A stretch of DNA of 64,000 bases from positions 1,931,547 to 1,995,546 of the forward strand of contig CP003940.1 of the NCBI GenBank assembly GCA_000317655.1, given 5' to 3'. Below the pieces are notes generated by a model. It had not been told where the DNA came from. It did not search any database and worked only from the letters and a program-made list of their open reading frames with translations. The translations under genes were made by a program, and so were the position numbers. Positions 34,581 through 54,110 of the stretch are shown in pieces. The DNA is from Cyanobacterium stanieri PCC 7202 (GTDB lineage: Bacteria; Cyanobacteriota; Cyanobacteriia; Cyanobacteriales; Cyanobacteriaceae). How positions within the stretch are numbered: position 1 is the first letter of the stretch; each line of letters begins with the position of its first letter.

Positions 34581-34898
34581 TTATTCAAAGGTTTCTTGAA
34601 TAATTAAACTGTGATGTAAACCAGTTTTTTCGATGGTTTCGAGGATCATTTCATCGGCACCAACTACATAAACATCGACCCCTGCACCCATTTTTTGTTT
34701 AGAAAACACTAATACCCGTAAACCAGCACTAGCCATGAACTCTAAATCATTCATGAACAAGACTAATTTTTTGGGTTCGGCGGCGGCGGCTTCTTCGATT
34801 TTGGTTTTGAAATCGGCGGCATTACTACCATCCAATTCCCCTGCGAGGGTGATTTTTGCCACTTCGTTTTCTACGGTCAAAGTTAAATCTAATGCCAT
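34581..34898 (-). CDS. STAS-domain anti-sigma antagonist (IcfG substrate type, Slr1859-like)
   Basis: This is a 105-residue single STAS domain. The phosphorylatable serine is S57 in FMASAGLRVL, aligned with the SpoIIAA/RsbV site. In Synechocystis two such proteins from the icfG cluster are phosphoproteins dephosphorylated by IcfG. It directly follows glgX, as slr1859 follows slr1857. RBS GGAG lies upstream of the ATG. The target that it binds when unphosphorylated is unknown. Confidence 0.9.
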   Translation of the reverse strand: MALDLTLTVENEVAKITLAGELDGSNAADFKTKIEEAAAAEPKKLVLFMNDLEFMASAGLRVLVFSKQKMGAGVDVYVVGADEMILETIEKTGLHHSLIIQETFE

Positions 34899-37133: not shown

Positions 37134-37469
37134 CTATCCTTCTAGTTGTTTTTTGGCATCATCAATGGAATCACTGACGGTGAAAAAGTCGAGGAATCCT
37201 GTGACTGACATGGTATCTTTGATGTCTTCTGATAATCCGACCAAAATTAATTTTGCTTCCTTGGCAGTGGCTTGGCGGTAGGTGGAAAGTAGAATCCTCA
37301 GTCCTGCACTGGACATATATTCTACCCCTGTCATATTAAGAATAATTTTGGCGTTTTCGGTGACTAGGGGAATAATGGTGTCTGTCACTTCAGAAGCGAC
37401 GGAGGAGTCTATATCTCCTTGAATGGTGGCAATTTGGATACTGTCTTGATTGGTAATATTTATTTCCAT
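37134..37469 (-). CDS. STAS-domain anti-sigma antagonist (Slr1856-like)
   Basis: This is a 111-residue STAS domain with the regulatory serine S54 in YMSSAGLRIL. In Synechocystis the equivalent protein is phosphorylated by the RsbW-like kinase and dephosphorylated by IcfG. A 9-base-pair hairpin separates it from the epimerase gene upstream, which may tune its expression within the operon. Confidence 0.9.
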   Translation of the reverse strand: MEINITNQDSIQIATIQGDIDSSVASEVTDTIIPLVTENAKIILNMTGVEYMSSAGLRILLSTYRQATAKEAKLILVGLSEDIKDTMSVTGFLDFFTVSDSIDDAKKQLEG

Positions 37470-37532: not shown

Positions 37533-39353
37533 TTATACGGGGGCGATGGTTACTTTTACTTTGACTCGGGTATCAGTTTTGGGTAACTTCACAGTCAAGG
37601 CATGGGCATCAAAGTTGCTGTAGGGTTCGCCATCAATTTCTACCCTGTCAATTTTGATACTACCGGGGGGCAAAATATCGGGGGATACCCTTAAAATATC
37701 GTCTTCAAACCCACCGGGGATGGGCTTAAAGTAGAAGTCCATGGGTTGTTTAACCACCAACAGATTAGTATATACGGCGGCAAGGTAGCAGAGTTCAAAG
37801 GAGTGATAACCACTCATGGAGTGACTTCCTTTGCCTCTTTCGTTACCCCCTGCGAGGAAGGGAATACCGTTGGCAAGGACGTTAAAGTAAACTCCGCCGT
37901 CTTCTAAGTCCAAGAACCAAGCGTTATAGAAGGCAGATGATTCACGGGCAAGGCGATGGTAGTCTTGATCGTCTAGTACCCCCGCAAGGATGAAGTAGGC
38001 AAGGATCATTTGTTCTTGTTGCCACCATGGTTTGCGATCATGCCATACGTAGCGATGATATTTTTCCCCTTCGGGGACGATTCTTTCTACCACATCATAG
38101 CATCCACCCCGTTGGCGATCGCTCCCGTGTTCGTTCATCAAGTCAGCAATCTTCTTGGCAAGTTCTACATATTCTTCCTTGGGTTTGAGGCTTTGCATCC
38201 TCATCAAGTTCCAGGCAATTTTGTAGTTATGTCCTACTACACCCCTGTCCTGTTGCCATCCCCAAGTTTTGTCGGGAGTCCAATCTTGATAAAACTTCTC
38301 CTGTACAAAGGGGCTGTTATCAAAATCAGGGAAATATTTGGCAATGGTATCAAAGGTATCCTCCAACATATCGGCATACTCCTGTTTGCCTGTGGCTAAC
38401 CAGAGATTGATCAAATAGGCAGGAGCATGATCCCCCACGGAGTTCCAGTTTTTACGCCCTTTATTGCGTCCTAGGGTGTCGCTGAGGGGGTCTAACATGA
38501 TGGGGTCTAGGTGGGAGAAATAGCTACCATGTTCCCCTTTATCTAGGAAAAATTCGTTAAATAGTTTGATGGTTTTTTCCGTATCCTCCATAATGCGAGG
38601 ATCCCCTGTACAACGGTAGGTTTGAATCGGACCTGCGAGGGCGTAGATTTGTTCATAGGCAGGAATAGCGTCATAGTCATCCCCAAATTCTGAGGCAAAT
38701 ATTTTCTCTTCGCGATCGCCATTAACATCAATACCATGATACCAATAGACAATCCCCTCATCGAGATCCTCAAATTTCATGTGTTCCCGTAAATATTCCG
38801 TTCCCCTCTCCGCAGCTTTGAGGAAACTATCATTACCTGTCATCATAAACGCCGTAGCAAAACCATATACTAAACGGGAAATAGTATCGGTTTCTTGACG
38901 AAAGCTAGTTTCTGATTGAATACCACTAATGGAAAGAGAAGTTCTATATCTACGGTAATCAAACTCCCCATCCCCAAATTGAGCTTTGAGATAAAACTTA
39001 CCTAAAGCATTGACTTGATTGATCCACCAGTTTTGTTTTTCAAAGACATAATCATTTTTCTTGCGTCCTGCAAAAACAATTTGTTTGGCATCAAAATATT
39101 CACTATCAGGATAAAATACACCGTAAACAAACAAAAAGCGTCCAACTTGCAACATTGAACGCATATTGCCTGTGGCATCAGGATAAGCCTCATCAAAATT
39201 TTGAATCAGTTTGGCATAGGCCATGGGGCTAAGTTTGACTTTAAATTCTCTCTCGTCAGAGGTTTTGATGGTGAAAGAATCATTAGCAGAATCATGGCTA
39301 GTTACATAACCAGCGATGAGATCAGAAAAGGGAAAATCAATGGAAAGAGTCAT
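37533..39353 (-). CDS. AGE-family (N-acylglucosamine 2-epimerase-like) protein, Slr1855-like
   Basis: The protein has 606 residues, longer than classical epimerases of about 400. An N-terminal extension of about 110 residues (beta-rich, KTSDEREFKVKLSP) precedes an (alpha/alpha)6 barrel region containing GWQQDRGVVGHNYKIAWNLM, RGGCYDVVER, WWQQEQMILAY and GNERGKGSHSMSGYHSFELC. A C-terminal beta segment closes the protein. The family interconverts sugars at C2 or isomerises aldoses; the substrate cannot be told here. Its place beside a STAS protein and glgX matches the Synechocystis icfG cluster. Confidence 0.87.
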   Translation of the reverse strand: MTLSIDFPFSDLIAGYVTSHDSANDSFTIKTSDEREFKVKLSPMAYAKLIQNFDEAYPDATGNMRSMLQVGRFLFVYGVFYPDSEYFDAKQIVFAGRKKNDYVFEKQNWWINQVNALGKFYLKAQFGDGEFDYRRYRTSLSISGIQSETSFRQETDTISRLVYGFATAFMMTGNDSFLKAAERGTEYLREHMKFEDLDEGIVYWYHGIDVNGDREEKIFASEFGDDYDAIPAYEQIYALAGPIQTYRCTGDPRIMEDTEKTIKLFNEFFLDKGEHGSYFSHLDPIMLDPLSDTLGRNKGRKNWNSVGDHAPAYLINLWLATGKQEYADMLEDTFDTIAKYFPDFDNSPFVQEKFYQDWTPDKTWGWQQDRGVVGHNYKIAWNLMRMQSLKPKEEYVELAKKIADLMNEHGSDRQRGGCYDVVERIVPEGEKYHRYVWHDRKPWWQQEQMILAYFILAGVLDDQDYHRLARESSAFYNAWFLDLEDGGVYFNVLANGIPFLAGGNERGKGSHSMSGYHSFELCYLAAVYTNLLVVKQPMDFYFKPIPGGFEDDILRVSPDILPPGSIKIDRVEIDGEPYSNFDAHALTVKLPKTDTRVKVKVTIAPV

Positions 39354-39446: not shown

Positions 39447-40037
39447 TTATTTTTCTATTTCCGCCAAAAAAGCATCTAAAAACTGATCTACAACCCCCGG
39501 ATGTTTCCCTGTAATTAAGTTACCATCAATAACCAAATCAGAGGTTACATCTCCCTCATAAACTACATCTCCCCCTGCGTTTTCCACATCACAAATAATG
39601 TTATGGGCACAGGTAACTTTTTTACCTTTTAGTAAATCAGGATCAGCACAAAATAACCATAAACTATGGCAAATTGTTCCCAATTTAACTTTATCTTCTT
39701 GCACTGCTTTTCTGAGAAATTCCACCGCAGGAGCAGTATTTTTTTGACCTTTTTTAACACTTACTTGATAGCGCAGTCTATCCATAGCGTAAGCTCCGAT
39801 ACAAATAATTCCTTTATAATCGGAGGGCTGAACATCATTTATTTCTGTGCTTACGGTGGCGTGAAATTCGATGACATCATTTTCAGGGTTAGAACCAAAT
39901 TTCAAAGATTCATTACCCCATAAATGGGAAATATACTCCACTTCGTAGCCATGTTCTGGAAAGAACTCATTAAAACGACGATATTCGGTAGCGTCGAAAT
40001 GTTCTTCAATAATTACACCAATTTTTCCTTTGGACAT
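39447..40037 (-). CDS. DJ-1/PfpI family protein, Slr1854-like
   Basis: This 196-residue glutamine-amidotransferase-like fold carries the nucleophile elbow cysteine in TICHSLWLFCAD and an upstream acidic segment (IEEHFDATEYRRF). Family members act as chaperones, glyoxalases or peptidases. It precedes the AGE-family gene by 93 bases, as slr1854 precedes slr1855 in Synechocystis. The C-terminal GKHPGVVDQFLDAFLAEI is typical of the family. Confidence 0.9.
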   Translation of the reverse strand: MSKGKIGVIIEEHFDATEYRRFNEFFPEHGYEVEYISHLWGNESLKFGSNPENDVIEFHATVSTEINDVQPSDYKGIICIGAYAMDRLRYQVSVKKGQKNTAPAVEFLRKAVQEDKVKLGTICHSLWLFCADPDLLKGKKVTCAHNIICDVENAGGDVVYEGDVTSDLVIDGNLITGKHPGVVDQFLDAFLAEIEK

Positions 40038-40466
40038 ACTTTTATCTTTTCTTAAAATTGCAATTTATTTTATTGGACTAAATCGTAATTATTTAATAAC
40101 TTATTTTAGTTATATTTTCGACCATTACTGATTGCTCCTAATATACTTCCTATATATAACTCTTTATGTAAAAAAAAGATATTAATTTATGTAAACTTTA
40201 CTGACCATATTCACTTTCTCGAAAACAAGTTACTCTTTTACGATAAAGCAAAATACCAGAAAAAATATCTAAATTTTGTAAGTATTTTTTTCAAGATAAA
40301 TATTAAGATAATCTTAAGACAATTATTCTCTTAGTATTTTTACCTAAGTACACTTAAGATTTTTGTTAAATAACAAAGAAAATTGTCATTTTCAAAGGTC
40401 GAAAAATATCAAGGTATTAAGAAATTAAATAAAACCTTTAAAAGTCGAACTGATTAACCATTGAGA
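40038..40466. promoter_or_regulatory. 429-base regulatory gap upstream of the DJ-1 gene
   Basis: This AT-rich spacer separates two same-strand blocks of the locus. It contains nested inverted repeats: AATCTTAAG (40310-40318) with CTTAAGATT (40353-40361), and inside them CTTAG with CTAAG. This symmetric layout could be an operator for the downstream DJ-1/epimerase/STAS/glgX unit. No open frame is seen. Confidence 0.45.
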
Positions 40467-43400
40467 TTAACTGATATTTGCAACTAAAGGATTTTGATGA
40501 CCCACATTAGAGATGGGATGATGCCCATGATGGGAAATAATGTCATGACCATGGGGCGAAGCTGATGAGGAACCATGATGACTAAAAGCAAAAGATTCTT
40601 GCATCAAACTAGCCAGAGAATGATGGCGAAGCATAATTAAGGGTTGGAGTACATCGTCAAAAATACCTCGAGGAGAAGAAACAGGGGGTTGGGGAGAAGG
40701 TGTATGACTATCAATGGCAATAAATTGAGGATTATTTTGTTGGTGTAAACTAATGAATTGCTCTTTACCGTTAATATCTTGAGCCAAAATGACTCCTTTA
40801 CCTCTTTTGCTATGTATATCAGCAAATGTACCAGCAAAATTAGTTAATTCCACATCGGGGGTGAAGGATGTTTGTAGTAATATTTGATCATTGCCAGAAG
40901 CAGAATGATCATCTCCTCCATGATTACTATGATCATGAGCAGATTGGGGTGTCAGATGGGAAGAGCTATGATGACCATGTCCTCCGAGAAGGGCGTGGAT
41001 TTTGATTTGATCATGACCATGGGGTATATCTCCCATCGCCATGGTGGTAATATTCGCCCCTGCGGTTTGTACTGGTAAGCCATTGGGTTCGTCGGGGGTT
41101 TGTAAGACATAACCCGATGTCACTTTCACTTCACCTGTAAAGTGGGGCCCGTAGGGTTGAAATTCACTGGTTAAGATTTCGGTTTCATGGGCGACACCAT
41201 TGGGGCTTAGGGTGTTAATTTCCCCTGTACGAATGATGCGGTCAAATTCACGTCCATCATATAATTCAACTAATCCTCTTCCTCCTGCCCCTTGGGAGAT
41301 GATAATGTCATCGAAGTTATCACCGTTGATGTCTCCCACGGCAATATTAATGTTACCCGTAAATTCTTCATGGTGGAAAGGATTAAAACGACCCAGTAAT
41401 TGAAAGTTTTGACCGCTATAGATTTCCACACGGGGGGCGATTCCTCCCCCAATGCCCACCACTATATCGGCAAAGCCATCCCCGTTGATGTCTCCTGCGG
41501 CAATGGAGGTAATGTTATCGGTACTGGTGTTAATATCTTGAAAGGGTCTGATTTCGGCGAGGAGGGTATTGGGATCATTCCCTGAAAAGTGATATGCAAA
41601 TTCAGAGTTGATAAACAGGGTGTCACCGTCAAATACTTTGATGGCAAATTCTTGGTTAGGATTGGTGAGTTGTCTTTGAATGGTGGCAACATCGGTTATG
41701 TTGTCATTGACATTGACATTGTTAGGATCTCGGATGGTTTTGTTGTTTATATCGGCGATCGCCACTTGAACCCCTCCTGAAAATCCGTGACCATAGGGAG
41801 TGAGATGGATTTGATTATCAGTATTACTAGCTTGGGATAGATGAATAGAATCCCCATGATCATTGTCCAAACCAAGCCAAGTATCTTCCGTATTCAAAAT
41901 CACCCTTACCACCGCCATCATCCCCGCATCCTCATGGAAAAGAATATGACAATGATTGACATAAGCCCCAGGGAAATCAAGAAACTCCATTAAAATCCTC
42001 ACCACCGATGGATTACCGTTGATTTGGGGAGTACCATAGGGGTTTTGGGGAGTCACCGAACCGGGGGCGTGGGCAGGGGGAAGGGCAACGGTATCACTTA
42101 ACACCCGTTCTAAGTAGTTTTGTTGAATATCACTAACAGGGATACCATTAATTTCTAAGACCACAAAATCATTTTGATGGATATGGAAAGGATGCCATTC
42201 TAGGAGAGGAAAATCGACCTGTAAACTAGGATCCGAGATACCAGAAATATTGACCACATCCCAAATTTCTGTGGTACCCAACATGGGCATGGTTAAAGGA
42301 GTCATGGCGATGCCTTCGGTGGCATAATATTCTCCATTAATCCGATAAGTTCCCTCAAAAGTTGCTACATCCGTATCATCAGGCATTCTACCTTCACTGA
42401 TGGCACCGCCCACATTTGCAGACCAAACAAATGTTCTCTCCTTATCCACATCTCCTGCCAAAGCCCGATCTACCAAATTATTGATCTTGTTGCTTTCTTG
42501 AATCAGAAAATCATACGCTTCAGGAAAAGCCCCCGTAGGAGTGGGATCCCCCGTCACTTCTACCGTCGCCAACACTTGAGGAGCCCAAGTTAGATGACCA
42601 TCATCAAATCCTTTATTTTGGGTTAGGAAAGGAGCATGATCGCCAATTAATTCGGCGGTACCATTGGCAAGAAAATAATATTTACCCGGTTCCTCAAACC
42701 AGTTTTGTAACGAAATACGAGAACCCGGATTAAGGATGGGGCTGTCCATTACCTCCCGACGAATGCCCTCCACAACCCCCGCCGCATCACCATCGATCGC
42801 CGTTAAGAGTAGTTCTTGAGGGGTAAGGGTTCCATCCGCTTCTTCTTTATAGAGTTGAACGATAAAGAAAGAATTAACGCTCATGTTGGCAAAAGAAAAT
42901 AAATTCCATTCCCCCGTGGTGGTTTCGATGGTGGGGTTATACTGTCCATTGATGGTATGGATGACATTCTCCACAGGTTCGAGGAACAAACCTTCTCCGT
43001 AGGGTCTTCCCCCGAGGGGATCAGTGGGATCATACCCTGCTACGAGTCCGCTATAGGTGACATAGGGGGCATTGGAGATGGTATATACAGGATCCCCATC
43101 TTGGTTGATGGTTTGGGCAAGGGGAGTCCCTGCGGGGAGAGAGAAGGAAGAATCCGCCGATTGATTGAGGGGATCATTAGGACGACTAGGGCGATATTCC
43201 TGTTGGATGCCGTAGGTTTGAATCGCCATGAAAAAGGCTGGGTTAGTAACGGGATCAAACTTATCTAGGTCAGGGAGATCATGACGGGGATTAATTAATA
43301 GATAACCTGCTAAACCCGAAGCTACCTGCTCATTGGTTAGTCCATGGAGGTGGGGATGGTACCATTGGGGCCCGATAAAGTGATTCTCAGGGATTTTTAT

Positions 43401-43958
43401 TTCTATGTCCCAACTGTCTCCCGGGGCGATGGTAACTAAAACATTATCCCCATGACCGACGGGGGAAACGTGCAAACCATGGGTATGAAAATTGGTGGGC
43501 TGATCGAGGTTGTTATGGAGGGTTATTTTCAGGGTATCTCCCGGCTCTGTGATCAACATTGGGCCAGGGATGCGACCGTTGTAAGCCCTGAGAATGTCGT
43601 AGGGGGTCGCTTTTCCTAGCCAATCAATAAAACCGTCTCCTTGTTGTAGGATACCAAAACCATCGATGACGATCTGCTCTAGTTCGTCCATATAAAGATC
43701 GATTTCCAAGGTATCCGCAGGCCCCCAACTAGAATAGTATTCCCCATTGGCACCTCGGGATACGAATACACCATCTTGATAGTTTTGATGATCAATCTGC
43801 CATTGCAAGAAGGGATCTTGATAAACTACTTTTTCGTTAGGTCTAGGTAAAACTTTGAGGTATCCATCGGGGTTAAATCCTTGGCTCCAACTATCGAAGT
43901 TTTGTTGACCGATAATGTAGCCGTTTTCAAGGGAGGAAAGAAGCGGTAGTGTACTCAT
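40467..43958 (-). CDS. large multicopper oxidase with FG-GAP repeats and His-rich tail
   Basis: The protein has 1,163 residues. The copper sites are complete: HTHGLH (158-163), WYHPHLHG (199-206), HPFHIHQ (near 590) and HCHILFHEDAGMM (near 666), the last giving type 1, 2 and 3 ligands. After residue about 700 come FG-GAP/VCBS-like repeats with calcium-type DINGDGFADIVVG and DINGDNFDDIIIS motifs. A strongly histidine-rich C-terminal region follows (HALLGGHGHHSSSH, HHGSSSASPHGHD). No signal peptide is visible; the C-terminal end (NPLVANIS) could serve type I secretion (inference). Family members oxidise phenols, Mn(II) or other metals. The two cupin genes lie immediately upstream on the same strand. 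Confidence 0.88.
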   Translation of the reverse strand: MSTLPLLSSLENGYIIGQQNFDSWSQGFNPDGYLKVLPRPNEKVVYQDPFLQWQIDHQNYQDGVFVSRGANGEYYSSWGPADTLEIDLYMDELEQIVIDGFGILQQGDGFIDWLGKATPYDILRAYNGRIPGPMLITEPGDTLKITLHNNLDQPTNFHTHGLHVSPVGHGDNVLVTIAPGDSWDIEIKIPENHFIGPQWYHPHLHGLTNEQVASGLAGYLLINPRHDLPDLDKFDPVTNPAFFMAIQTYGIQQEYRPSRPNDPLNQSADSSFSLPAGTPLAQTINQDGDPVYTISNAPYVTYSGLVAGYDPTDPLGGRPYGEGLFLEPVENVIHTINGQYNPTIETTTGEWNLFSFANMSVNSFFIVQLYKEEADGTLTPQELLLTAIDGDAAGVVEGIRREVMDSPILNPGSRISLQNWFEEPGKYYFLANGTAELIGDHAPFLTQNKGFDDGHLTWAPQVLATVEVTGDPTPTGAFPEAYDFLIQESNKINNLVDRALAGDVDKERTFVWSANVGGAISEGRMPDDTDVATFEGTYRINGEYYATEGIAMTPLTMPMLGTTEIWDVVNISGISDPSLQVDFPLLEWHPFHIHQNDFVVLEINGIPVSDIQQNYLERVLSDTVALPPAHAPGSVTPQNPYGTPQINGNPSVVRILMEFLDFPGAYVNHCHILFHEDAGMMAVVRVILNTEDTWLGLDNDHGDSIHLSQASNTDNQIHLTPYGHGFSGGVQVAIADINNKTIRDPNNVNVNDNITDVATIQRQLTNPNQEFAIKVFDGDTLFINSEFAYHFSGNDPNTLLAEIRPFQDINTSTDNITSIAAGDINGDGFADIVVGIGGGIAPRVEIYSGQNFQLLGRFNPFHHEEFTGNINIAVGDINGDNFDDIIISQGAGGRGLVELYDGREFDRIIRTGEINTLSPNGVAHETEILTSEFQPYGPHFTGEVKVTSGYVLQTPDEPNGLPVQTAGANITTMAMGDIPHGHDQIKIHALLGGHGHHSSSHLTPQSAHDHSNHGGDDHSASGNDQILLQTSFTPDVELTNFAGTFADIHSKRGKGVILAQDINGKEQFISLHQQNNPQFIAIDSHTPSPQPPVSSPRGIFDDVLQPLIMLRHHSLASLMQESFAFSHHGSSSASPHGHDIISHHGHHPISNVGHQNPLVANIS

Positions 43959-44034: not shown

Positions 44035-45690
44035 TTAAGCAAAAATGCTACTATCAGCAGAGGCAGTAATAATTGATGCTTCGGTGGTTTGGTTTCCCAA
44101 CATGGCATTTTGGAATGGTCTTCCCTGGGCATTGACAGGGCCCATACCCATATTATTGGGGTTATTAAATCCGGGGGGAAGGTTGTTGGCGAAAAGGTTG
44201 GCTAAGACATTAGGAGCGTTACCCCGATTTTCCCTCGCCCCTTGTCCGGGGTTGTTGGGAATTCCTCGACCAAATAAATTGAAGCCCACAGGGGGGAAGA
44301 TACTTGTGGGTGGTTCATTGGGGGAGGTGATGGGGTCAGGTTCTGTTCTGTCTCCTGCGATGGTAAATTGAATGACGTTGGCGGTTAAAGGAGTACCTCG
44401 CAATTCAAAGGTTTGACCTCGGTCAATATAGAAATAGTCTCCTTCTTGGGCTAGTTGTTCAAACTCGCCAATGCGGAAAATGACCGCCCCCTCAAGGATG
44501 CGAAATACTTCTTGATCATCGGTCATTTGAATGTAAACTTCATTTACCCCAATTTGAAATAAATTAGTAGCCACGGGGTTGGGGTTTAGGGGACCATCAT
44601 TTTGTCCAAATCTCATTAAGGAGAAAGGAGTTTCAAAAGAAGTATTGGCAAAGGGATCTAGGGGGGCAGGAATGGCATCCTCTAGGGTAGGAGAATCATC
44701 CCCCACAATGGCAGACCCGGGGCGATCGCCCAGTACCAGACCACTAGGGCCGCCATCAGGGGGATCAATTTGAAAGGCAGGACTACCATCGGCAGGAACT
44801 CCGTATAACACCAGAGAACCTACTCCCTCAACGGTTTGGGGAATGGGATTAAAGCCCAAAAATTCTAATACCTCGGGCTGAAAATCCACCTGTTTAAAGA
44901 AGTCATAAAAATCGGGGTCATCAGGAACGATTCCCTCCACCTCGGTAGAATTAAATAATCGACCTGTGGGAATTAAATTGTTGGTATTATTGGCCGCTAA
45001 AATAGGATGGGGTTCGGGGGATGGATCGTATAATCCCGCAGGGGCACCTACACGGGCAAAACCTTCCCCAATACCCGCAGGGGTGAGTAGGGCGATGATT
45101 CTTGCGGGTATTTTTCCTGTATTTGACCAAGTATGAATTTTACCCGTTGCTAAACCGACAAAGGAGCCTTTAGTTAGTTCTACCCCATTAATTTCTATTT
45201 CCTCATCCCTGACAATGGAAAAAGGGTTCATGGGATCTGCTAAATTAAATACTCCGTCCAAATCAGCATTTAATTCAAAAATGACCTCATCGTTATCCGC
45301 AATGTTGGGGTTATCATCATTGAAAGGATCTCCCCCGAGTACATAAAACAATTCCACCCCTTGCAGATGGGAATGAAATACTGTCGTAGCTTCGGGAGGC
45401 ACAAGAAACTCAAAAATATCGAAAGCTAACCCTGTCTGTTCCCCTGTGACCACATCCAGATACAAACCTTGGGAGGGTTGAAAGGTAGCAGTGGTTTTTT
45501 CTTGGAAAACTAGATTACCGCTACTATCAAACCCTGTGGCGATAAAACTAGGGGCTTGAATTTGTAAGCTATCAGGGTTGAGCAGATCGGAACCTGCTTC
45601 CACGTCGGCTCGAATGAAAGGATTACGTAAAAAATCAACGTCGATGATGTCATCCAAGTTGGCTGTTACATAGATAAATGGTGCTCTCAT
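44035..45690 (-). CDS. bicupin protein, shorter duplicate
   Basis: The protein has 551 residues. The first cupin has a full metal motif, VFHSHLQGVELFYVLGGD (His, His, Glu) and the second-motif His in GKIHTWSN. A second cupin near 380-445 (IFRIGEFEQLAQEGDYFYID) lacks the histidine ligands. The C-terminal 90 residues are Pro/Asn-rich and end in SIITASADSSIFA. No signal peptide is seen. Cupins of this type include dioxygenases acting on aromatic or flavonoid compounds, but the substrate is unknown. About 455 N-terminal residues are nearly identical to the next protein upstream, which shows a recent tandem duplication. The stop is 76 bases from the multicopper oxidase start. Confidence 0.85.
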   Translation of the reverse strand: MRAPFIYVTANLDDIIDVDFLRNPFIRADVEAGSDLLNPDSLQIQAPSFIATGFDSSGNLVFQEKTTATFQPSQGLYLDVVTGEQTGLAFDIFEFLVPPEATTVFHSHLQGVELFYVLGGDPFNDDNPNIADNDEVIFELNADLDGVFNLADPMNPFSIVRDEEIEINGVELTKGSFVGLATGKIHTWSNTGKIPARIIALLTPAGIGEGFARVGAPAGLYDPSPEPHPILAANNTNNLIPTGRLFNSTEVEGIVPDDPDFYDFFKQVDFQPEVLEFLGFNPIPQTVEGVGSLVLYGVPADGSPAFQIDPPDGGPSGLVLGDRPGSAIVGDDSPTLEDAIPAPLDPFANTSFETPFSLMRFGQNDGPLNPNPVATNLFQIGVNEVYIQMTDDQEVFRILEGAVIFRIGEFEQLAQEGDYFYIDRGQTFELRGTPLTANVIQFTIAGDRTEPDPITSPNEPPTSIFPPVGFNLFGRGIPNNPGQGARENRGNAPNVLANLFANNLPPGFNNPNNMGMGPVNAQGRPFQNAMLGNQTTEASIITASADSSIFA

Positions 45691-45855
45691 GGTTTTTCTT
45701 ATTATACTTTTTACGGTTCATTAATCTGATTAGGGCAGGGAATAAAGGAAGGGTTTATGATTGTAATAAGGTTTCAGCGTTTTTGTATTCCCACTCTGAA
45801 TTACCCCTGCCTTAATAAAGGGGAAAAGAAATTTCAAATTCTCATAATTGATTCA

Positions 45856-48800
45856 TTAGCTAAATAATGGGGAATTAGCGCCCATCATATTGCTAGAACC
45901 TTGACCCGAGATTAGTTGGGATAATACCTGTGCAAAGATATTAGAACCCACAGAAGGAGGCTCTCCCACACCAGGGGGGGAAGGAATATCGACAATAATG
46001 GGAATTTCTGGGAGTTGGTTGGCACTGGTCACAAAATTATCAGTAATGACTGTTAGGGAGTCAATATCTAATATGTCTCCTGCATCACCAAAGTTGGATA
46101 CTCCCGGATCCACCGCAGCACTGTTACCACTAATTAAACTGTCAATAATGGTAGTATTACTGGCAATGTCAGGTCGATTATCACCATTACCGACACCCCC
46201 TGCCCGTTGTACTGCTGAGTTATTGAGAATGGAAGTTCTGACTATTTCCAAAGTTCCGAGGGAATTTCCTAATCCTCCGTTGTTGAGGGCTTGGTTATTC
46301 TCCACGGTACTATCAACAAGGGTTGCACTGCCAGAGTTGCCCACACCACCATTATCTCCTCGGGTGATGTTATTGGCGATGGTGCCACGAATAACGCTGA
46401 TATTACCGCTATTGAGAATACCGCCGTCTCCTAGTTCCGCAGAGTTGTTACTAATCACACTATCGACCACTTGACCACGGTTATAATTGGCGATCGCCCC
46501 TCCATTACCTGCGGTACGATTATCAACCACAGAGCTATTTTGTAGGTTAAAAGTACCATAGTTGGTGATACCACCACCATCAATGTTAGAACTGTTATTG
46601 CTGATTTCTGTACCAATAACGTTCATAAAGTTATAGTTACCAATACCGCCCCCTGTCTGCAAGGCTCGGTTGTTGATAACTCGACTATTAGTAAGGGTTA
46701 AAGCTCCATTATTACTAATACCGCCATTATCAAAATCAGCAACATTATTACTAATTTCTGTATTATTAATCATGGCATTGCCAAAATTAACAAATCCACC
46801 GTTAAACTGAGCGGCTACGTTATTACGAATGACACTGTCTTGAATACTGATAAAGCCACCATTGGCAACCCCACCATTAAATTGTCCTGAAATATTATCA
46901 GCGATGGTACTTCTTTCGATGGTCAAACTACCGAGGTTAGAAATACCACCATTATTAAGAATTGCCGAGTTGCCGATCACTTCACTATCAATTAAAGTCA
47001 GGGTATTACCATTAAAAATACCGCCCACATTTTGCAGAGAATCATTATTATTAATTCTCGTATTTTGAATCATGGCAGTACCAAAATTAGTAATACCCCC
47101 ATTATCAAAACTAGCTCGGTTATTTTCAATGACACTATTGGTAATAACCAAATCACCCCCAGCAAAATTAACAATACCTCCAGTGAAACGGGTAGCTTCG
47201 TTGTCTGCAATCAAGCTATTATCGATTACTAATCGACCAGAGTTGTAAATTCCTGCATGGTCAAATTCGACAAAGTTTCCACTAACTTCACTGTTAGTAA
47301 TGGTTAAATCTCCACCGTTGAAGATACCACCAAAAAATGTAGTACGTCCTCCCGTAATTTTTAGATTGTCAAAACGTACTTGGGCACCGGGGAAAATCTC
47401 GAAGACGCGATCGCCCTGTTCCAATCCTGAAGCATCAATAACCGCTTTTTGATCGCCAATGCCAACAATTTCAACCCTACCCCCTGCCAGAATATCCAAA
47501 TCTCCTGCCAAGGCTTCATTTTCATCTCGGAGATCAATTTCGAGGAGATAAGTTTGTCCTCCCTGTAGTTCAATAATAAAATTATCCACAGGATTACGAT
47601 TAGCAATAATAATCGCATCCCTTAAGGAAAGACCATTTTCCGCACTACCATCATTTTGATCCTCCGTGGTATCAACTCGAAGGGTAATAGTTTCAGGTAA
47701 AGGACTACTGGCAACGGAAAATTGAATTACATTAGCCGTATTAGCAGTACCCTGTAACTGAAGATTTTGCCCCGCATCAATATAAAAATAATCCCCTTCC
47801 GATGCGGTTTGTTGAAAATCACCAATGGAAAAAACCACCTCTCCACTCAAAACCCGGAATACTTCCTGAGTGGTTGTCACTTGAGAATAAAATTCATTGG
47901 CGCCAATTTGAAATAAATTAGTAGCCACGGGGTTAGGGTTCAAAATACCATCATTTTGCCCAAATCTCATTAAGGAGAAAGGAGTTTCAAAAGAAGTATT
48001 AGCAAAGGGATCTGAGGGTGCAGGAATGGCATCCTCTAAGGTCGGAGAATCATCCCCCACCAAAGCAGATCCCGGAATCACAGAGGTAACTAGACCACTA
48101 GGGCCGCCATCAGGGGGATCAATTTGAAAGGCAGGACTACCATCGGCAGGAACTCCGTATAACACCAGAGAACCAACCCCATCAACGGTTTGAGGAATCG
48201 GATTAAAGCCTAAAAATTGTAATACCTCGGGCTGAAAATCCACCTGAGTAAAAAAGTCATAAAATTCTGGATCTCCCGGGACAATCCCTTCCACCTCGGT
48301 GGGAGTTCTACCTGTGGGAATTAAATTGTTGGTATTATTGGCCGCTAAAATAGGATGGGGTTCGGGGGATGGATCGTATAATCCCGCAGGGGCGCCTACA
48401 CGGGCAAAACCTTCCCCAATACCCGCAGGGGTGAGTAGGGCGATGATTCTTGCGGGTATTTTTCCTGTATTTGACCAAGTATGAATTTTACCCGTTGCTA
48501 AACCGACAAAGGAGCCTTTGGTTAGTTCTACCCCATTAATTTCTATTTCCTCATCCCTGACAATGGAAAAAGGATTATTGGGATCTGCTAAATTAAATAC
48601 TCCGTCCAAATCAGCATTTAATTCAAAAATGACCTCATCGTTATCCGCAATGTTGGGGTTATCATCATTGAAAGGATCTCCCCCGAGTACATAAAATAAT
48701 TCCACCCCTTGCAGATGGGAATGAAATACTGTCGTAGCTTCGGGAGGCACAAGAAACTCAAAAATATCGAAAGCTAACCCTGTCTGTTCCCCTGTTACCA

Positions 48801-49038
48801 CATCCAGATACAAACCTTGGGAGGGTTGAAAGGTAGCAGTGGTTTTTTCTTGGAAAACTAGATTACCGCTACTATCAAACCCTGTGGCGATAAAACTAGG
48901 GGCTTGAATTTGTAAGCTATCAGGGTTGAGCAGATCAGAACCTGCTTCCACGTCGGCACGGATGAAAGGATTACGTAAAAAATCAACATCAATGATGTCA
49001 TTTAAATTGGCTGTTACATAGATAAATGGAGCTCTCAT
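45856..49038 (-). CDS. bicupin fused to a right-handed beta-helix domain, longer duplicate
   Basis: The ATG at 49038 (MRAPFIYV) is chosen because it matches the start of the paralog, giving 1,060 residues. Residues 1-455 repeat the bicupin module with the same HSHLQGVE motif. From about 470 the protein turns into a pectate-lyase/autotransporter-type beta-helix: the entry motif NGLSLRDAIIIAN, then some 18 turns of about 24 residues of the pattern NGGI-N-G-LTI-NS-I-NN. The C-terminus ends GANSPLFS. No signal peptide is visible. The combination of a metal cupin and a beta-helix is uncommon. It may be surface-displayed or exported by a type I system (inference). Confidence 0.85.
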   Translation of the reverse strand: MRAPFIYVTANLNDIIDVDFLRNPFIRADVEAGSDLLNPDSLQIQAPSFIATGFDSSGNLVFQEKTTATFQPSQGLYLDVVTGEQTGLAFDIFEFLVPPEATTVFHSHLQGVELFYVLGGDPFNDDNPNIADNDEVIFELNADLDGVFNLADPNNPFSIVRDEEIEINGVELTKGSFVGLATGKIHTWSNTGKIPARIIALLTPAGIGEGFARVGAPAGLYDPSPEPHPILAANNTNNLIPTGRTPTEVEGIVPGDPEFYDFFTQVDFQPEVLQFLGFNPIPQTVDGVGSLVLYGVPADGSPAFQIDPPDGGPSGLVTSVIPGSALVGDDSPTLEDAIPAPSDPFANTSFETPFSLMRFGQNDGILNPNPVATNLFQIGANEFYSQVTTTQEVFRVLSGEVVFSIGDFQQTASEGDYFYIDAGQNLQLQGTANTANVIQFSVASSPLPETITLRVDTTEDQNDGSAENGLSLRDAIIIANRNPVDNFIIELQGGQTYLLEIDLRDENEALAGDLDILAGGRVEIVGIGDQKAVIDASGLEQGDRVFEIFPGAQVRFDNLKITGGRTTFFGGIFNGGDLTITNSEVSGNFVEFDHAGIYNSGRLVIDNSLIADNEATRFTGGIVNFAGGDLVITNSVIENNRASFDNGGITNFGTAMIQNTRINNNDSLQNVGGIFNGNTLTLIDSEVIGNSAILNNGGISNLGSLTIERSTIADNISGQFNGGVANGGFISIQDSVIRNNVAAQFNGGFVNFGNAMINNTEISNNVADFDNGGISNNGALTLTNSRVINNRALQTGGGIGNYNFMNVIGTEISNNSSNIDGGGITNYGTFNLQNSSVVDNRTAGNGGAIANYNRGQVVDSVISNNSAELGDGGILNSGNISVIRGTIANNITRGDNGGVGNSGSATLVDSTVENNQALNNGGLGNSLGTLEIVRTSILNNSAVQRAGGVGNGDNRPDIASNTTIIDSLISGNSAAVDPGVSNFGDAGDILDIDSLTVITDNFVTSANQLPEIPIIVDIPSPPGVGEPPSVGSNIFAQVLSQLISGQGSSNMMGANSPLFS

Positions 49039-49140
49039 GGTTTTATCATTATGAAGATTATTAAATCGGTTATATAAAACAAAGATGGTGAGCATTTTTG
49101 CCCACCGTGAAAAGAGTTCAGTTAACCATTAATCAAGGGT

Positions 49141-52100
49141 TTATAACTGAACTCCTGTTTGAGAAGCATCGGGATATACGCGCCACTCAAAGATTTTGTC
49201 TCCGTCAAAGCGATAAATATCGGTACAGGGTACTTGGACAAATTTCTGGGTTTTCTTGTTGACATAATTAGCATCCATTTCGAGGATGATGGTATTGTCC
49301 ACTTCCCACATACCACGGGTGTTATGGGTGGTTAGTTTGAGGGTTTGGTAAATATGTTGTAGTAAACCCGCAATGTTATCAGGGCCGATTACAGGCTCAT
49401 TGGCACCAATTTTATAGAGGACATCGGGGGTAAAGAAGGTTTTAAATTCTTCCCAGTTACCTGCATGGAGTGCCGCATACATTTTGTTGAGTTGTTCGCC
49501 AATTTTGGCACTGGGGGCAGGTTTGGCGGGTTCTACCGCAGGGGTGGCAAATACTGGGGTAATGTCCATATAGATGCGTAATTCCTGCACCTTATCCCCT
49601 TTGAAAACGATAGTGTCACAGCAGGGTAAGCGGAATACTTTACCGTCATGGCGAATATAGGTAACTTCCATTTCACAGATGACCGTGTCACCATATTCCC
49701 ACATTTTAGTAATGTGATGGTAAACTTTGGCTACGGTGTTGAGAAAGTCCACAGAGGCACCTTTGATGCCTTCGGGCCCATAGGCTACGGGGAAGTTACT
49801 GAATTGATAGTGAGCATCTTCGGTGTAGAATTTAACGAAGTTGTTGACGTTCATAGATTCCCCTGCGAGGAACATTTGGCGAACGATTTGGCAGAGTCTG
49901 CCTTCGGTGGTGGGGTTGTTGGTGGTGATTTGACTCATAGGATTTTCGGGGTATTTTTGTTCAACTATATTTTTGATGTGTAAGGTCGCTTTTTCGATAT
50001 ATTCGGGATTAGCGGCATGAACAAAGGGCTGGGCTTCGGGAAGTTCTAAGGCTCCATCGGCTAGGGGTGTAAGTTGAAAAACATTCACTAGCATGGGGGA
50101 GGAGGGTTTTCCCGGTTCGTTGGGTTGGATTACCTGATTGATGAATCGAGGTTGGAACATGGGATAGTTGAGGATGTCGTAGGTGATCATCCGATTGGAC
50201 TCATCAATGGTAATTCTTTCTCTGACTAGCATTTGGGAAGTTTTAACTTCCCTGAGCATTCCATCAGTATATTTTTCGAGGGTGCGGGTATATTCCACGG
50301 GGGAGGGCATATAGTTGCCGGGGTTTTCGATTTTATCGAGGAGAATTTCCCACACGGACTCGGCTTGGGCGTTAACGGGAATGCTGTAATGGGCTTTGAG
50401 TTCTTGGTTGGCAGGGCTAAATCCTCTACCGTTCAAACCCCAATACTGATTATGGTTATCGATGTTGTATTCCCGTTGCGCTCTGGTAAAGTTTTCTTTG
50501 GCTTTACGGCGTACTTGGTTAAATTCCAGTTGTTCGCCATTGGGCCCTTTGCAGTAAAATAATGCCCAACCGTCAAAGTCTCCGGGAAACTCGGTTTTGG
50601 CGTATTTTTTAGGAGCGATCGCCCTTGCCTGTTCAGAGTCTAGGCGGATGGTACGGTTTGCCACTACGTTAGTCATGCCCCGACGGTGACATTCTTCTTC
50701 TAACATACGGGCAAATTCATCTAAATCCACATCATCTTTGACAAAGAAGGAAAGATGGGGCGCGTTTACATAACCAATACCTGTGGGAATGGACTCGAAG
50801 GTATTGGGGGCGTGTTCATCTTGATTTGCCCCACGGAAGTGGATTAACTCCACGCAGGTATTACCAAAGGAAATAAAGCGCACGTCTAGGGCATCTTTAC
50901 TACCATCCCGAATGTCAGGAACTCCTAAACTACGGGGATCAATACCTTTTTGTTTTGCTTCTAAATCTTCTTTTTGGAAGATCAGATTATGTAAGTCTTC
51001 GCCCACAAAACCGTTACCACCAATGGCAACTTTACCCCCTAATACCTCTAGGTAAAATTCGAGGGCAAGATCCAAATTATTTACGGTGATTCCGAAATGT
51101 TGGACTCCTTGCAAATGTTGGGCAATGGTACGGGGGGAAGCATTGGGATTAATGGCTTCTAGGGGTACTTTTCCGTTGGGCTGATGACCATTGCCATTAC
51201 TGTGATGACCATTGGATGGTGCAGGGGCGATCGCCCCTTCATAGTTACCCTTGAGCATCAAATCAGTAATATCAGATCGCAGTTGGTTGGTTGCTCCGAT
51301 GGTGGAAATGAGTTCCGATACCTTAGAACTTCTTTCTCCTGCTAGGGTCATTTTACCGTCATAGACAAAGGTATATACAGTGCGTTCGGGAAAAGGACGA
51401 ATCAACTGAATATATTGTCCTGCTTGGGCTACAGCCTGTTGATATTCCGCCGATGCAAAAAACTGCTCCCTTTGTAACTGATTACCAAAAGCAATCTCAA
51501 AAGCCGCATCATACTCCTTGCCGGGGGTTTCTGAATGAATTACCCCTGCCGCATCAGGACGGGAATTATCGATGGCATCAAAAAGATGAAGACGAAATTT
51601 AAGAACCGAAGAAGATTTACTGATATAAGGAGCAAAAGTATTGCGCAAATAGTTGCGAAAATCCTCCACACTGACATGGGGCTGTTTTCTAACCATGGTA
51701 TGGAATTTAACCGCTCCACTCACCCCGTTAGGGCTACCATTGACAATGCCATCCACATAGGTAATGGAGTTACCAGGGCTGGTGGTGTAACCGATGGCTT
51801 TTTTAAAGATATTATGCTCATCATCCATAAGGATACCTGCGGCGGTAAACCAGGTGGTGCGATCTTGTTCGTTGGCAAAAGTTAACTCAGCAATGCCATC
51901 GAAGTTATCTTCGGGATCAAAATAAGAATTTACCCCAGCAATATTAGGAAATAGACCATTTTCGCTATGGGCAACATGAAATTGCCAATATTGAAACTGC
52001 CCTGGGAGTCTGGCACACACTGGACCATGGACATCTTTCCAGTAGTTATCAAACAGATCCAAGGTGATGCCGTCTCGCTTCCAAAGAAGAACATAGAAGG

Positions 52101-52161
52101 CGACTTTTCCTGTGGCATCCCGTGGGGCGTAATTGTTAGTGGTGATGGTTTCTAAGGTCAT
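49141..52161 (-). CDS. multidomain fusion: two EthD, VOC, SRPBCC and two SnoaL-like domains
   Basis: I chose the ATG at 52161 because GAGG lies at good spacing before it and the start falls 11 bases after the upstream stop, giving 1,006 residues. Domains in order: two EthD-like ferredoxin folds (about 15-130, with WKDVHGPVCARLPGQ, and 150-265), a Gly/Asn/His linker, a VOC/glyoxalase domain (about 345-550, metal-type His in VQHFGITV and APHLSFFV and Glu in EQLEFNQV), an SRPBCC or DUF1857-like lipid-fold domain (about 585-735) and two SnoaL/NTF2-like domains (about 755-868 and 890-1006). All are folds typical of aromatic or polyketide tailoring. I know no named protein with this layout. The function is unknown. 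Confidence 0.83.
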   Translation of the reverse strand: MTLETITTNNYAPRDATGKVAFYVLLWKRDGITLDLFDNYWKDVHGPVCARLPGQFQYWQFHVAHSENGLFPNIAGVNSYFDPEDNFDGIAELTFANEQDRTTWFTAAGILMDDEHNIFKKAIGYTTSPGNSITYVDGIVNGSPNGVSGAVKFHTMVRKQPHVSVEDFRNYLRNTFAPYISKSSSVLKFRLHLFDAIDNSRPDAAGVIHSETPGKEYDAAFEIAFGNQLQREQFFASAEYQQAVAQAGQYIQLIRPFPERTVYTFVYDGKMTLAGERSSKVSELISTIGATNQLRSDITDLMLKGNYEGAIAPAPSNGHHSNGNGHQPNGKVPLEAINPNASPRTIAQHLQGVQHFGITVNNLDLALEFYLEVLGGKVAIGGNGFVGEDLHNLIFQKEDLEAKQKGIDPRSLGVPDIRDGSKDALDVRFISFGNTCVELIHFRGANQDEHAPNTFESIPTGIGYVNAPHLSFFVKDDVDLDEFARMLEEECHRRGMTNVVANRTIRLDSEQARAIAPKKYAKTEFPGDFDGWALFYCKGPNGEQLEFNQVRRKAKENFTRAQREYNIDNHNQYWGLNGRGFSPANQELKAHYSIPVNAQAESVWEILLDKIENPGNYMPSPVEYTRTLEKYTDGMLREVKTSQMLVRERITIDESNRMITYDILNYPMFQPRFINQVIQPNEPGKPSSPMLVNVFQLTPLADGALELPEAQPFVHAANPEYIEKATLHIKNIVEQKYPENPMSQITTNNPTTEGRLCQIVRQMFLAGESMNVNNFVKFYTEDAHYQFSNFPVAYGPEGIKGASVDFLNTVAKVYHHITKMWEYGDTVICEMEVTYIRHDGKVFRLPCCDTIVFKGDKVQELRIYMDITPVFATPAVEPAKPAPSAKIGEQLNKMYAALHAGNWEEFKTFFTPDVLYKIGANEPVIGPDNIAGLLQHIYQTLKLTTHNTRGMWEVDNTIILEMDANYVNKKTQKFVQVPCTDIYRFDGDKIFEWRVYPDASQTGVQL

Positions 52162-52172
52162 AGGTTTATCCT

Positions 52173-52529
52173 CTACTGGGACTGGGAAAAAAAATCGTTT
52201 AAAGCTCCAAAACAACCAGCAGCTTTATTAAAACCTGTGTAGGGGCAAAGGAATAAAAGGAGTTCTTCTATTTCCTCTCGGGTTGCCCCTTGTTTCATTG
52301 CCATGGCAACATGGGCGCCGAAGGGACTCCCCGGACCATTTTGGCTTTGATTAACCACATCTAGGGCGATGGTAATTAATGCTTTGGTTTTTTGGTCAAT
52401 GAGGGGTAATCCCCAAGCCTCCCCTGCCACTCTGGTGACAAAGTCACCGAATTTGGGGTTAATAGCTTTTAGCCCTTCCTGAAGTTCTAGGTCGTCTAAA
52501 ACCGCATTTTTGTAGGGTTGATCCGTCAT
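52173..52529 (-). CDS. carboxymuconolactone decarboxylase-like protein, Slr1853-like
   Basis: This is a 118-residue CMD domain: KTKALITIALDVV, FGAHVAMAMKQGATREEI and LLFLCPYTGFNKAAGC. The AhpD CxxC pair is absent before the histidine, so it is nearer the true decarboxylase/lactonase subgroup than the peroxidase-like one. It lies between the two EthD proteins with gaps of 11 and 51 bases, so the three form one operon. A homolog sits at the start of the Synechocystis icfG cluster. Confidence 0.88.
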   Translation of the reverse strand: MTDQPYKNAVLDDLELQEGLKAINPKFGDFVTRVAGEAWGLPLIDQKTKALITIALDVVNQSQNGPGSPFGAHVAMAMKQGATREEIEELLLFLCPYTGFNKAAGCFGALNDFFSQSQ

Positions 52530-52580: not shown

Positions 52581-54110
52581 TTAGGTGGTGATTAATTGGA
52601 TTAACTCCCCAGGGGCGAAGACATCACGGTAGAAGGTGAGTTGTTCGGTTTTGAGATAACAAGCCCCTCTATGTCCTCTTCTGACCCAAGTAACGTTACC
52701 TTTAGCGAGGGTTTCGTTGGTTTCGTCATCAACACATTTCCATTCAAAGTAGGTATGTTCCCCAGAAAACATGACGATGGGCCAACACATGGTAACTCCG
52801 GGTTGAGCGATTAATGCCCACCAGTGTTTTTCCCTTTCTCTCTGCTCGTTTAAGCCGTAGTAGGGTCCATCTTGGCAAAGATAGGTTAGGTCATCACGAT
52901 ATTCCCCGGTGAGAATGTCTCCCCTTCCTTGTCTGAGGGCTTCGCAATGGGTAGGCCACCATTCTTTGTTTTCGGCTTCGATTTGCTCAAGGGTGTAGCC
53001 TGGCCCAATTTGAGGTAACACAGGCTCTTTCATCGCAACGATCTTCTCGGCATCTTCAATGAGCTTTTTGGCTACATAGGAACTAACTAAGCCGGGGCGG
53101 GAGTAATCTGCGGAGAGTCCTTGATAATAGTTGGTTCTTTTTTTCATGGTGGTTTGTTGATTAGTGGAGGCGAAGTTACCTGCGAGGTTTTGATGCAACA
53201 TCAAGTCGGTGATGTCGGGTTTTACTTGGTTGACGGCGCCAATGTCGGTGATCAGTTCGGCGACATAGGAACTTCTTTGCCCGGCGAGGGTCATGGTGCC
53301 GTCATATACAAAGGTGTAAGCGGTACGCTCGGGGAAAGGGCATATCTGTTCGATATACTGAGGAGCGTTTTTGATGGCATTTTGGTATTCGGAGGAGTTA
53401 AAGAATTTTTCTCGCTCGAGGTGATTGGCAAAGGCAATCTCGTAAGCGGCATCATATTCTTTGCCCACTGTCTCTGAATGAATAACTCCCGCCGCATCTG
53501 GACGAGAGTTATCTATGTCATCAAAGAGATGGAGTCTAAATTTTAAGAGGTGAGCATTGTTAATGATGCTGGGGGCAAAGGTATCTCTGAGGTAGCTTCT
53601 GAAGTTTTCCCGAGAAACACTTTTGTGTTTGCGCACCATGACATGGAATTTTACTATGCCCGTTTCTCCGTTGGGGGTACCTTCTACGATGCGATCGCAA
53701 TAGGTGATGGAATTACCAGGGCTGGTGGTATAACCAATGGCTTTTTTAAAGATGTTATGTTCATCGTCCATTAACATCCCCGCCGCATTAAACCAAGTGT
53801 TTCGATCTTGTTCGTTGGTAAAGGTTAACTCGGCAATACCATCGAAGTTATCTTCTTCTGGAAAATATTCCTGTAAACCGGGTATTTGGGGACAGAATCC
53901 TCCTTGATTATGGGCAACATGAAATTGCCAATACTGATATTGCCCTGGCAATCTAGCACACACTGGACCATGAACATCTTTCCAATATTCATCAAACAAA
54001 TCCAAAGTAATGCCGTCTCTTTTCCACAGCAACACGTAAAAGGCTACTGTCCCTTTTCGATCCCTGACGGAATAATCGATCTGGCTTGATTGATTGATCG
54101 TTGAAACCAT
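52581..54110 (-). CDS. EthD-EthD-SnoaL-like protein, paralog of the upstream-type fusion
   Basis: The protein has 509 residues. The first 280 residues are closely similar to the N-terminal two EthD modules of the 1,006-residue fusion (same KDVHGPVCARLPGQ and DDEHNIFKKAIGYTTSPGN blocks). The C-terminal half has a SnoaL/NTF2-like domain (IVMFSGEHTYFEWKCVDDE, CYLKTEQLTFYRDVFAPGE). EthD proteins catalyse or aid ring oxidation and peroxide chemistry. It is the first gene of the minus-strand run and follows a 430-base AT-rich promoter region, so it probably heads the operon. Confidence 0.85.
   Translation of the reverse strand: MVSTINQSSQIDYSVRDRKGTVAFYVLLWKRDGITLDLFDEYWKDVHGPVCARLPGQYQYWQFHVAHNQGGFCPQIPGLQEYFPEEDNFDGIAELTFTNEQDRNTWFNAAGMLMDDEHNIFKKAIGYTTSPGNSITYCDRIVEGTPNGETGIVKFHVMVRKHKSVSRENFRSYLRDTFAPSIINNAHLLKFRLHLFDDIDNSRPDAAGVIHSETVGKEYDAAYEIAFANHLEREKFFNSSEYQNAIKNAPQYIEQICPFPERTAYTFVYDGTMTLAGQRSSYVAELITDIGAVNQVKPDITDLMLHQNLAGNFASTNQQTTMKKRTNYYQGLSADYSRPGLVSSYVAKKLIEDAEKIVAMKEPVLPQIGPGYTLEQIEAENKEWWPTHCEALRQGRGDILTGEYRDDLTYLCQDGPYYGLNEQREREKHWWALIAQPGVTMCWPIVMFSGEHTYFEWKCVDDETNETLAKGNVTWVRRGHRGACYLKTEQLTFYRDVFAPGELIQLITT

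Follow-up and report, generated by a model that had tools for sequence, protein, structure and literature searches.

Why would a cyanobacterium carry six small cavity-forming domains in one polypeptide, and in which pathway would such a chain work? The question is raised by an open reading frame (ORF) of Cyanobacterium stanieri PCC 7202, located in a 64,000-nucleotide stretch of contig CP003940.1 (positions 1,931,547 to 1,995,546), the whole of which is referred to here as the window; coordinates are those of the window. At 49141-52161 on the minus strand, a single intact frame of 1006 amino acids encodes a protein of the layout EthD-EthD-VOC-SRPBCC-SnoaL-SnoaL, hereafter the fusion. An initial annotation made from the letters alone had proposed a single chain of six domains, and Pfam, an AlphaFold2 model, and structure matches agree with it; that annotation knew of no named enzyme with this layout, and we found none. 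What it did not contain was the setting, namely an enlarged icfG operon and a conserved partner gene. Its membership in an icfG (slr1852-slr1861) operon that has been enlarged at the head is well supported. We tentatively read it as a natural fusion of cooperating tailoring enzymes that forms part of the variable head of this operon and performs several steps on one small molecule, and we give this reading slightly less than an even chance.

Pfam matches above cut-off were obtained for EthD (5.2e-17), Glyoxalase (1.7e-6), and SnoaL_2 (7.7e-26), with two stretches each for EthD and SnoaL_2 when stretches were counted at E up to 1. Pfam scores for the SRPBCC region stayed below threshold (AtaL, 22.5 bits vs. 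a cut-off of 27; Polyketide_cyc2, 16.7 vs. 27.4). The AlphaFold2 model, built from 25 sequences, had a mean predicted local distance difference test score (pLDDT) of 69.0 and a predicted template modeling score (pTM) of 0.38, being good over EthD, SRPBCC, and SnoaL and poor at residues 294-585 (linker and VOC), where pLDDT was mostly <60. The list of structure matches was dominated by the first SnoaL domain and is uninformative on families that it does not show. Searched whole against PDB sequences, the fusion gave nonsignificant VOC-type matches only, including FosB (best E 0.047).

Within the chain, all coordinates being on the minus strand, EthD unit 1 (51727-52116, residues 16-145) matched Pfam EthD and carries HGP, the active-site motif of EthD, as H45-G46-P47, conserved in 94%, 100%, and 96% of non-gap rows among 58 aligned sequences. 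The EthD-like unit 2 (51247-51726, residues 146-305) keeps R190 (100%), H192 (94%), and N292 (100%). The "two EthD" of the initial annotation therefore hold as two Pfam stretches; since unit 2 lacks the HGP of unit 1, they are better read as one EthD pair, conceivably a fused dimer with one working site. The VOC domain (50437-51126, residues 346-575; Pfam Glyoxalase) has a candidate metal tetrad, H355, E438, H469, and E546, each present in 100% of non-gap rows (29 distinct sequences plus the reference); H-E-H-E is the pattern of a glyoxalase-type metal site. The SRPBCC/AtaL-like domain (49936-50403, residues 587-742) showed the helix-grip fold, its model matching the ZhuI aromatase/cyclase (3tfz_E) with Z 16.6 and a root-mean-square deviation (rmsd) of 3.2 over 150 residues. 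SnoaL domain 1 (49522-49923, residues 747-880) was recognized by Pfam and by its limonene-epoxide-hydrolase fold (5yqt_E; Z 19.1, rmsd 1.8, 123 residues) and keeps Y785, N789, Y835, C847, and D849 in 100% of 30 sequences, while SnoaL domain 2 (49144-49515, residues 883-1006), also found by Pfam, matched a SnoaL-like cyclase fold (3i0y_B; Z 16.8, rmsd 2.2, 122 residues). The best Foldseek matches of the tandem SnoaL pair were Lsd19 and MonBI/MonBII.

The initial annotation had also allowed for a frameshift joining separate genes. We reject this and an assembly artefact: the host genome is a single contig of 3,163,381 bases, a homologue in Geminocystis (L057) is intact, with identical domain layout and 79-80% identity, and purifying selection acts on all six domains. 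Ratios of nonsynonymous to synonymous substitution (dN/dS) between the two, approximate with synonymous sites near saturation, were, in domain order, 0.101, 0.042, 0.077, 0.094, 0.082, and 0.104. The linker at residues 306-345 drifts, with 53% identity only. The frame opens with an ATG at 52161 and stops at 49141; a TTG at 52215 opens a longer frame. In a member of the same genus (L061), the fusion and several neighbors are broken up, in what looks like a poor contig. At E 1e-10, the fusion was matched in 54 of 388 genomes of the host's order. Matches were also present in 17 of 386 genomes sampled across the phylum, a set that overlaps the former. Anti-phage defence was considered and rejected, with no PADLOC match (E up to 0.01) for the fusion or the two genes upstream of it.

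Those two genes form the rest of the head. Just upstream of the fusion lies a gene of the carboxymuconolactone decarboxylase (CMD) family (52173-52529, minus strand, 118 amino acids), whose stop is separated by 11 nt from the fusion ATG, itself preceded by an AGAGGA-like site. In many relatives a CMD module is fused at the N end of the fusion homologue, and by gene order the CMD gene is the slr1853 counterpart. Upstream of CMD, a partner protein of 509 amino acids (52581-54110, minus strand) combines a second EthD pair with an NTF2-like domain of 184 amino acids, P2C (52584-53135, minus strand), which by gene order corresponds to slr1852. A Pfam search with P2C, read up to E 1, gave no match, and neither P2C nor the EthD pair had a credible relative among PDB sequences. 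The window copy shares 58-93% identity with 52 other sequences, and P2C was matched in 68 of 388 genomes of the order (E 1e-6). Its model (pLDDT 87.3) predicts an NTF2 cone fold, matching 7e85_A (Z 13.0, rmsd 2.8, 113 aligned) and 3f7s (Z 12.9).

The NTF2-type folds of both proteins invite the idea that the SnoaL and P2C modules act on CO2 or bicarbonate in the manner of iota-carbonic anhydrase. Foldseek ranks 11-13 were multi-unit iota-carbonic anhydrases (E 1.7e-7 to 2.9e-7, rmsd ~25), a subthreshold match to SgcJ/EcaC (TIGR02246; E 0.035, 14.1 bits vs. 33.95) points to a family that we take to be related to iota-carbonic anhydrase, and the operon is tied to inorganic carbon. We nevertheless regard this as highly improbable: the feature shared is the common NTF2-type fold only, CaMKII-AD was not among the family profiles listed at E up to 1, and the remaining modules would be left without a role.

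The assignment to the icfG operon comes from gene order. Running down from 40037 to 34581 on the minus strand, the window encodes a DJ-1/PfpI protein (39447-40037), an AGE-epimerase-like protein (37533-39353, 606 amino acids), a STAS anti-sigma factor antagonist (37134-37469), the glycogen debranching enzyme GlgX (34967-37087), and a second STAS antagonist (34581-34898), an icfG-type core in the positions of slr1854, slr1855, slr1856, slr1857, and slr1859, respectively. The slr1855 position is given by gene order; the AGE-like protein has no Pfam match, only weak profile matches below cut-off, and homologues in named records are annotated as AGE family. Gene order was compared across 64 stretches, for whose annotation profiles were derived from the window and a small number of the loci. 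The set comprises 40 stretches round fusion matches, 20 mostly round P2C matches, L003-L005, and the window itself; with L004 and L042 being one contig, 63 stretches are distinct. The order P2C, CMD, DJ-1, AGE-like, STAS, GlgX, STAS, SpoIIE phosphatase, and RsbW-like kinase was found in L086-L088, with the AGE frame split in L087. The divergent neighbor in L087 matched Sll1785 in PDB (238 residues, E 4e-163), and L087 is therefore a Synechocystis. In 41 of the 53 stretches with P2C, or 40 of 52 once the duplicate contig is dropped, at least two of the five core genes were in view. DJ-1 was in view, always on the same strand, for 16 of the 21 proteins or pieces that join VOC to other modules, counting the VOC-SRPBCC piece of the broken L061; among the other five, L045, L059, and L068 touch a contig edge and L057 and L072 do not. 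On a plasmid of Nostoc sp. NIES-3756 (L106), CMD, P2C ("hypothetical protein"), an "AtaL-like" protein, aldose epimerase, glucose dehydrogenase, DJ-1, AGE, STAS, and GlgX occur together, and the "AtaL-like" protein matches the fusion over 67% of its length. A single transcript across the head genes and the core is putative, being read from spacing and strand; promoter-like sites (31 vs. 38.0) and terminator-like sites (17 vs. 18.1) did not exceed those in shuffled sequence.

Excerpts of the Synechocystis literature describe slr1852-1862 as one operon with an epimerase, an antagonist, GlgX, and IcfG (PMC8670252) and annotate slr1853 as CMD (PMC3564720). Slr1861 appears in an excerpt of a further paper as an anti-SigC factor and kinase tied to inorganic carbon, and work cited there has linked the icfG operon to glucose and inorganic-carbon regulation since 1994 (PMC12329169). 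In these excerpts the first genes of the operon are without assigned function, slr1852 being hypothetical and slr1854 unknown.

With DJ-1/PfpI adjoining the head genes and a glyoxalase-type H-E-H-E tetrad in the VOC domain, the fusion could be a clean-up enzyme, removing reactive carbonyls, quinones, or peroxides that arise from photosynthesis or carbohydrate breakdown, DJ-1 and VOC acting as glyoxalase-type proteins; the CMD family includes peroxidase-like members, which fits as well. Up to seven fused modules in varied layouts would, however, hardly be needed for such a task, and relatives of the SRPBCC and SnoaL domains lie in biosynthetic or aromatic clusters, making a clean-up function improbable.

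The head modules behave as a kit. The survey of architectures that the initial annotation had suggested found the window's own layout in two of the 63 distinct stretches, the window and Geminocystis. Other fused layouts were EthD pair-P2C (18), EthD pair-SnoaL-SnoaL (6), CMD-EthD pair-VOC-SnoaL (5), CMD-EthD pair-VOC-SnoaL-SnoaL (4), and CMD-EthD pair-VOC-SRPBCC-SnoaL-SnoaL (4, one with a cut-down second EthD), and single modules were also frequent (P2C alone 34, EthD pair alone 15, VOC alone 7). Among the rarer layouts are one with two VOC domains and one in which SRPBCC-SnoaL forms a gene of its own; some of the rare forms are truncations at contig ends. In total, the modules form at least nine fused layouts or stand as separate neighboring genes, mostly beside the icfG core. 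In L060:8537-11530, most of the fusion's second EthD unit is absent, the match covering 45 residues; such a natural deletion could help to probe what the unit does. The EthD pair and VOC are separate divergent genes in L089-L091 (genomes of 2.3-2.8 Mb, one genus), with a multicopper oxidase beside VOC. Genes of the icfG type or head modules were also seen on plasmids of Nostoc sp. NIES-3756 (L106), Gloeocapsopsis dulcis (L116), and Gloeothece verrucosa PCC 7822 (L117), a location that suggests transfer.

Could the kit sense rather than catalyze? As a ligand-sensing scaffold, the six cavity domains would bind a metabolite without converting it and signal carbon or redox status to the STAS/RsbW switch. 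The genes do adjoin a partner-switching set, cavity folds also serve as binders (designed NTF2-type binders were among the P2C matches), and SnoaL domain 1 is without epoxide-hydrolase residues. Against this, conservation of the VOC tetrad and of the EthD motif is like that in enzymes, the neighbors CMD, DJ-1, AGE-like, and multicopper oxidase belong to enzyme families, and no tallied layout fuses kit modules to STAS, kinase, or phosphatase, other signalling domains not having been searched for. We think multistep catalysis likelier than a role purely in binding or sensing, and we consider the sensing scaffold unlikely.

The EthD pair, shared by the fusion and the P2C partner, bears on how the two chains might work together. 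In a tree of 57 EthD pairs, fusion and partner copies intermixed by lineage, and the four copies of the window and Geminocystis formed one clade (98/100). Each label needs at least five changes on well-supported branches, in a tree whose bootstrap had not settled and which has some long branches. The pattern would fit either repeated fusion or gene conversion keeping the EthD copies alike, and both histories would suit a role in docking or co-assembly. A bolder proposal, to which we assign only a small chance, is that the locus encodes a new kind of modular enzyme assembly, in which a shuffled kit of cavity-fold enzymes, its two chains docked via their homologous EthD pairs, makes a small molecule directly controlled by the icfG switch. 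If so, that molecule could report carbon status and be the missing metabolic output of the icfG operon.

Leads to the chemistry came from distant standalone relatives, found on plasmids with tblastn (13 records; contexts were read without H12, H13, H17, and H18). An AtaL-like relative in Crinalium (36.9% identical) lies in a type I polyketide synthase cluster with an aromatase/cyclase and methyltransferases. In Caballeronia, an SRPBCC and NTF2 pair adjoins an aromatic-ring dioxygenase, coniferyl-alcohol dehydrogenase, and gentisate dioxygenase. VOC relatives in Rhizobium/Phyllobacterium have a "putative quinol monooxygenase" as next gene on all three plasmids that carry annotation, a single species accounting for two of these; two further VOC plasmid records are unannotated. 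A SnoaL relative in Salipiger clusters with genes for VOC, cupin, and fumarylacetoacetate hydrolase proteins, and an EthD gene of Gloeothece has genes for a multicopper oxidase, CMD, P2C, and two CDGSH proteins in its vicinity, with hpaB ~5 kb away. These gene contexts lead us to favor a series of successive reactions on an aromatic, quinol, or enol compound, linked to icfG control.

The initial annotation had offered a multistep catalyst or a scaffold for a labile substrate. This reading is borne out in part: the occurrence of the modules as separate adjacent genes, the VOC tetrad, the EthD motif, the polyketide and aromatic-catabolic clusters of distant SRPBCC and SnoaL relatives, and the quinol monooxygenase gene next to distant VOC relatives fit such a protein, whose chemistry is a prediction from these features. 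Several observations weigh against an enzyme fusion at the head of the icfG operon. The VOC tetrad was read from the alignment only, its geometry being unseen with the AlphaFold2 model poor over this domain. SnoaL domain 1 is without the Arg99-Asp101-Asp132 catalytic triad of limonene epoxide hydrolase, a profile alignment placing Arg99 at a gap, Asp132 at Ile863, and Asp101 at Glu832, a position that is Asp in many relatives. The Roseomonas relative of the EthD pair has no telling gene context, and the 22 window proteins scanned, a subset of the window ORFs, include no ketosynthase. A 429-nt gap (40038-40466) separates the multicopper oxidase from DJ-1. The closest full-length relative, in Geminocystis, has no icfG core gene within its 19.5-kb stretch, and L072 likewise shows none. 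Synechocystis-like loci hold only P2C and CMD at their head; since they manage with these two alone, the other head modules are not needed for the core.

In the mechanism that we consider most plausible, the fusion would carry out consecutive rearrangements on one unstable aromatic, quinol, or enol intermediate. The VOC domain would contribute metal-assisted proton or oxygen chemistry, EthD a decarboxylation or dehydration, and the SRPBCC and SnoaL domains cyclization or isomerization, while CMD, P2C, DJ-1, the AGE-like protein, the multicopper oxidase, and the cupins may act before or after the fusion. The EthD pair, in both the fusion and the P2C partner, might form an intramolecular dimer and a shared docking piece that joins the two chains. 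Expression would be expected to track carbon status, in line with reports on the icfG operon. A study reportedly concerns CyAbrB1 with the icfG and sll1783 operons. Taken as a Rosetta stone, the fusions suggest that the first icfG genes act with EthD, VOC, SRPBCC, and SnoaL as a recurring set, and the metabolic side of a central regulatory operon thereby becomes directly testable. The layouts also run from separate genes up to chains of six and seven modules, a natural series in which the origin of enzyme fusions can be studied.

Between the fusion and the core, on the same strand, the window encodes a cupin and repeat protein (45856-49095, 1079 amino acids; the next gene after the fusion), a second cupin protein (44035-45690, 551 amino acids), and a laccase-type multicopper oxidase with FG-GAP repeats (40467-43958, 1163 amino acids), a recurrent neighbor. 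The two adjacent cupin proteins (44035-49095) are 90.6% identical over 445 residues, indicating recent duplication, and the larger has, by eye, a long repeat-rich tail. Beyond the second STAS gene come a plus-strand ORF and then an OprB porin, an RsbW-like kinase, a nonribosomal peptide synthetase (NRPS)-like protein, and sensor and phosphatase genes. The RsbW-like serine kinase/anti-sigma factor (31685-32119, minus strand) is of the slr1861 type, with RsbW models below cut-off, and a response-regulator SpoIIE-type phosphatase (23514-25304, minus strand) is a possible, nonadjacent IcfG counterpart; kinase and phosphatase are present in the window, with other genes standing between both and the core. 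Adjoining the kinase, the NRPS-like protein (28690-31638, minus strand) has an adenylation-carrier-thioester reductase arrangement. Among the stretches, its sole recurrences (78-79% identical) are at the ends of L037 and L038, both of the same genus, and it may be a genus-level addition to the cluster.

Beside the fusion in other genomes, all six proteins scanned have Nif11 at the N end followed by one or two SnoaL domains (L062:5757-7262, L063:12761-13948, L065:12942-14069, L066:12122-13630, L067:11944-13431, and L074:10366-11544). An ABM domain, a further lead to the chemistry, was present in four of them (L062, L065, L066, and L067), and a relative in L073 had no Nif11. Nif11 is mainly known as the leader of peptide natural products; in these proteins it stands in front of an enzyme-like chain.

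The modules and the icfG core are already known; our searches of open-licence papers turned up no description of the fusion, the partner domain, or the operon enlargement. Among known enzymes, Lsd19 and MonBI/MonBII, polyether epoxide hydrolases, have SnoaL-fold units in tandem or complex as in the fusion (3rga, E 5.5e-10); the fusion differs in its ~10% identity, in having no polyether pathway seen nearby, and in the missing limonene-epoxide-hydrolase residues of SnoaL domain 1. ZhuI, BexL, and AtaL-like proteins share the fold of fusion residues 584-741, although Pfam AtaL falls below cut-off and the scanned window proteins include no ketosynthase. Glyoxalase I and methylmalonyl-CoA epimerase have VOC half-motifs and an H-E-H-E set in common with the fusion VOC, which at ~230 residues is covered by PDB profile matches to these enzymes mainly in the first half-motif. 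The EthD family shares HGP with unit 1, while the fusion differs by its tandem pair, degenerate second unit, and extra fused domains. A further close system is the icfG operon of Synechocystis sp. PCC 6803 (slr1852-slr1862), whose core gene order is that of L086-L088, in agreement with excerpts of PMC8670252 and PMC3564720. Unlike the window, Synechocystis-like icfG loci have no EthD, VOC, SRPBCC, or SnoaL head modules; compared with that operon, the window has cupins and a multicopper oxidase inserted between head and core, and its phosphatase lies further off.

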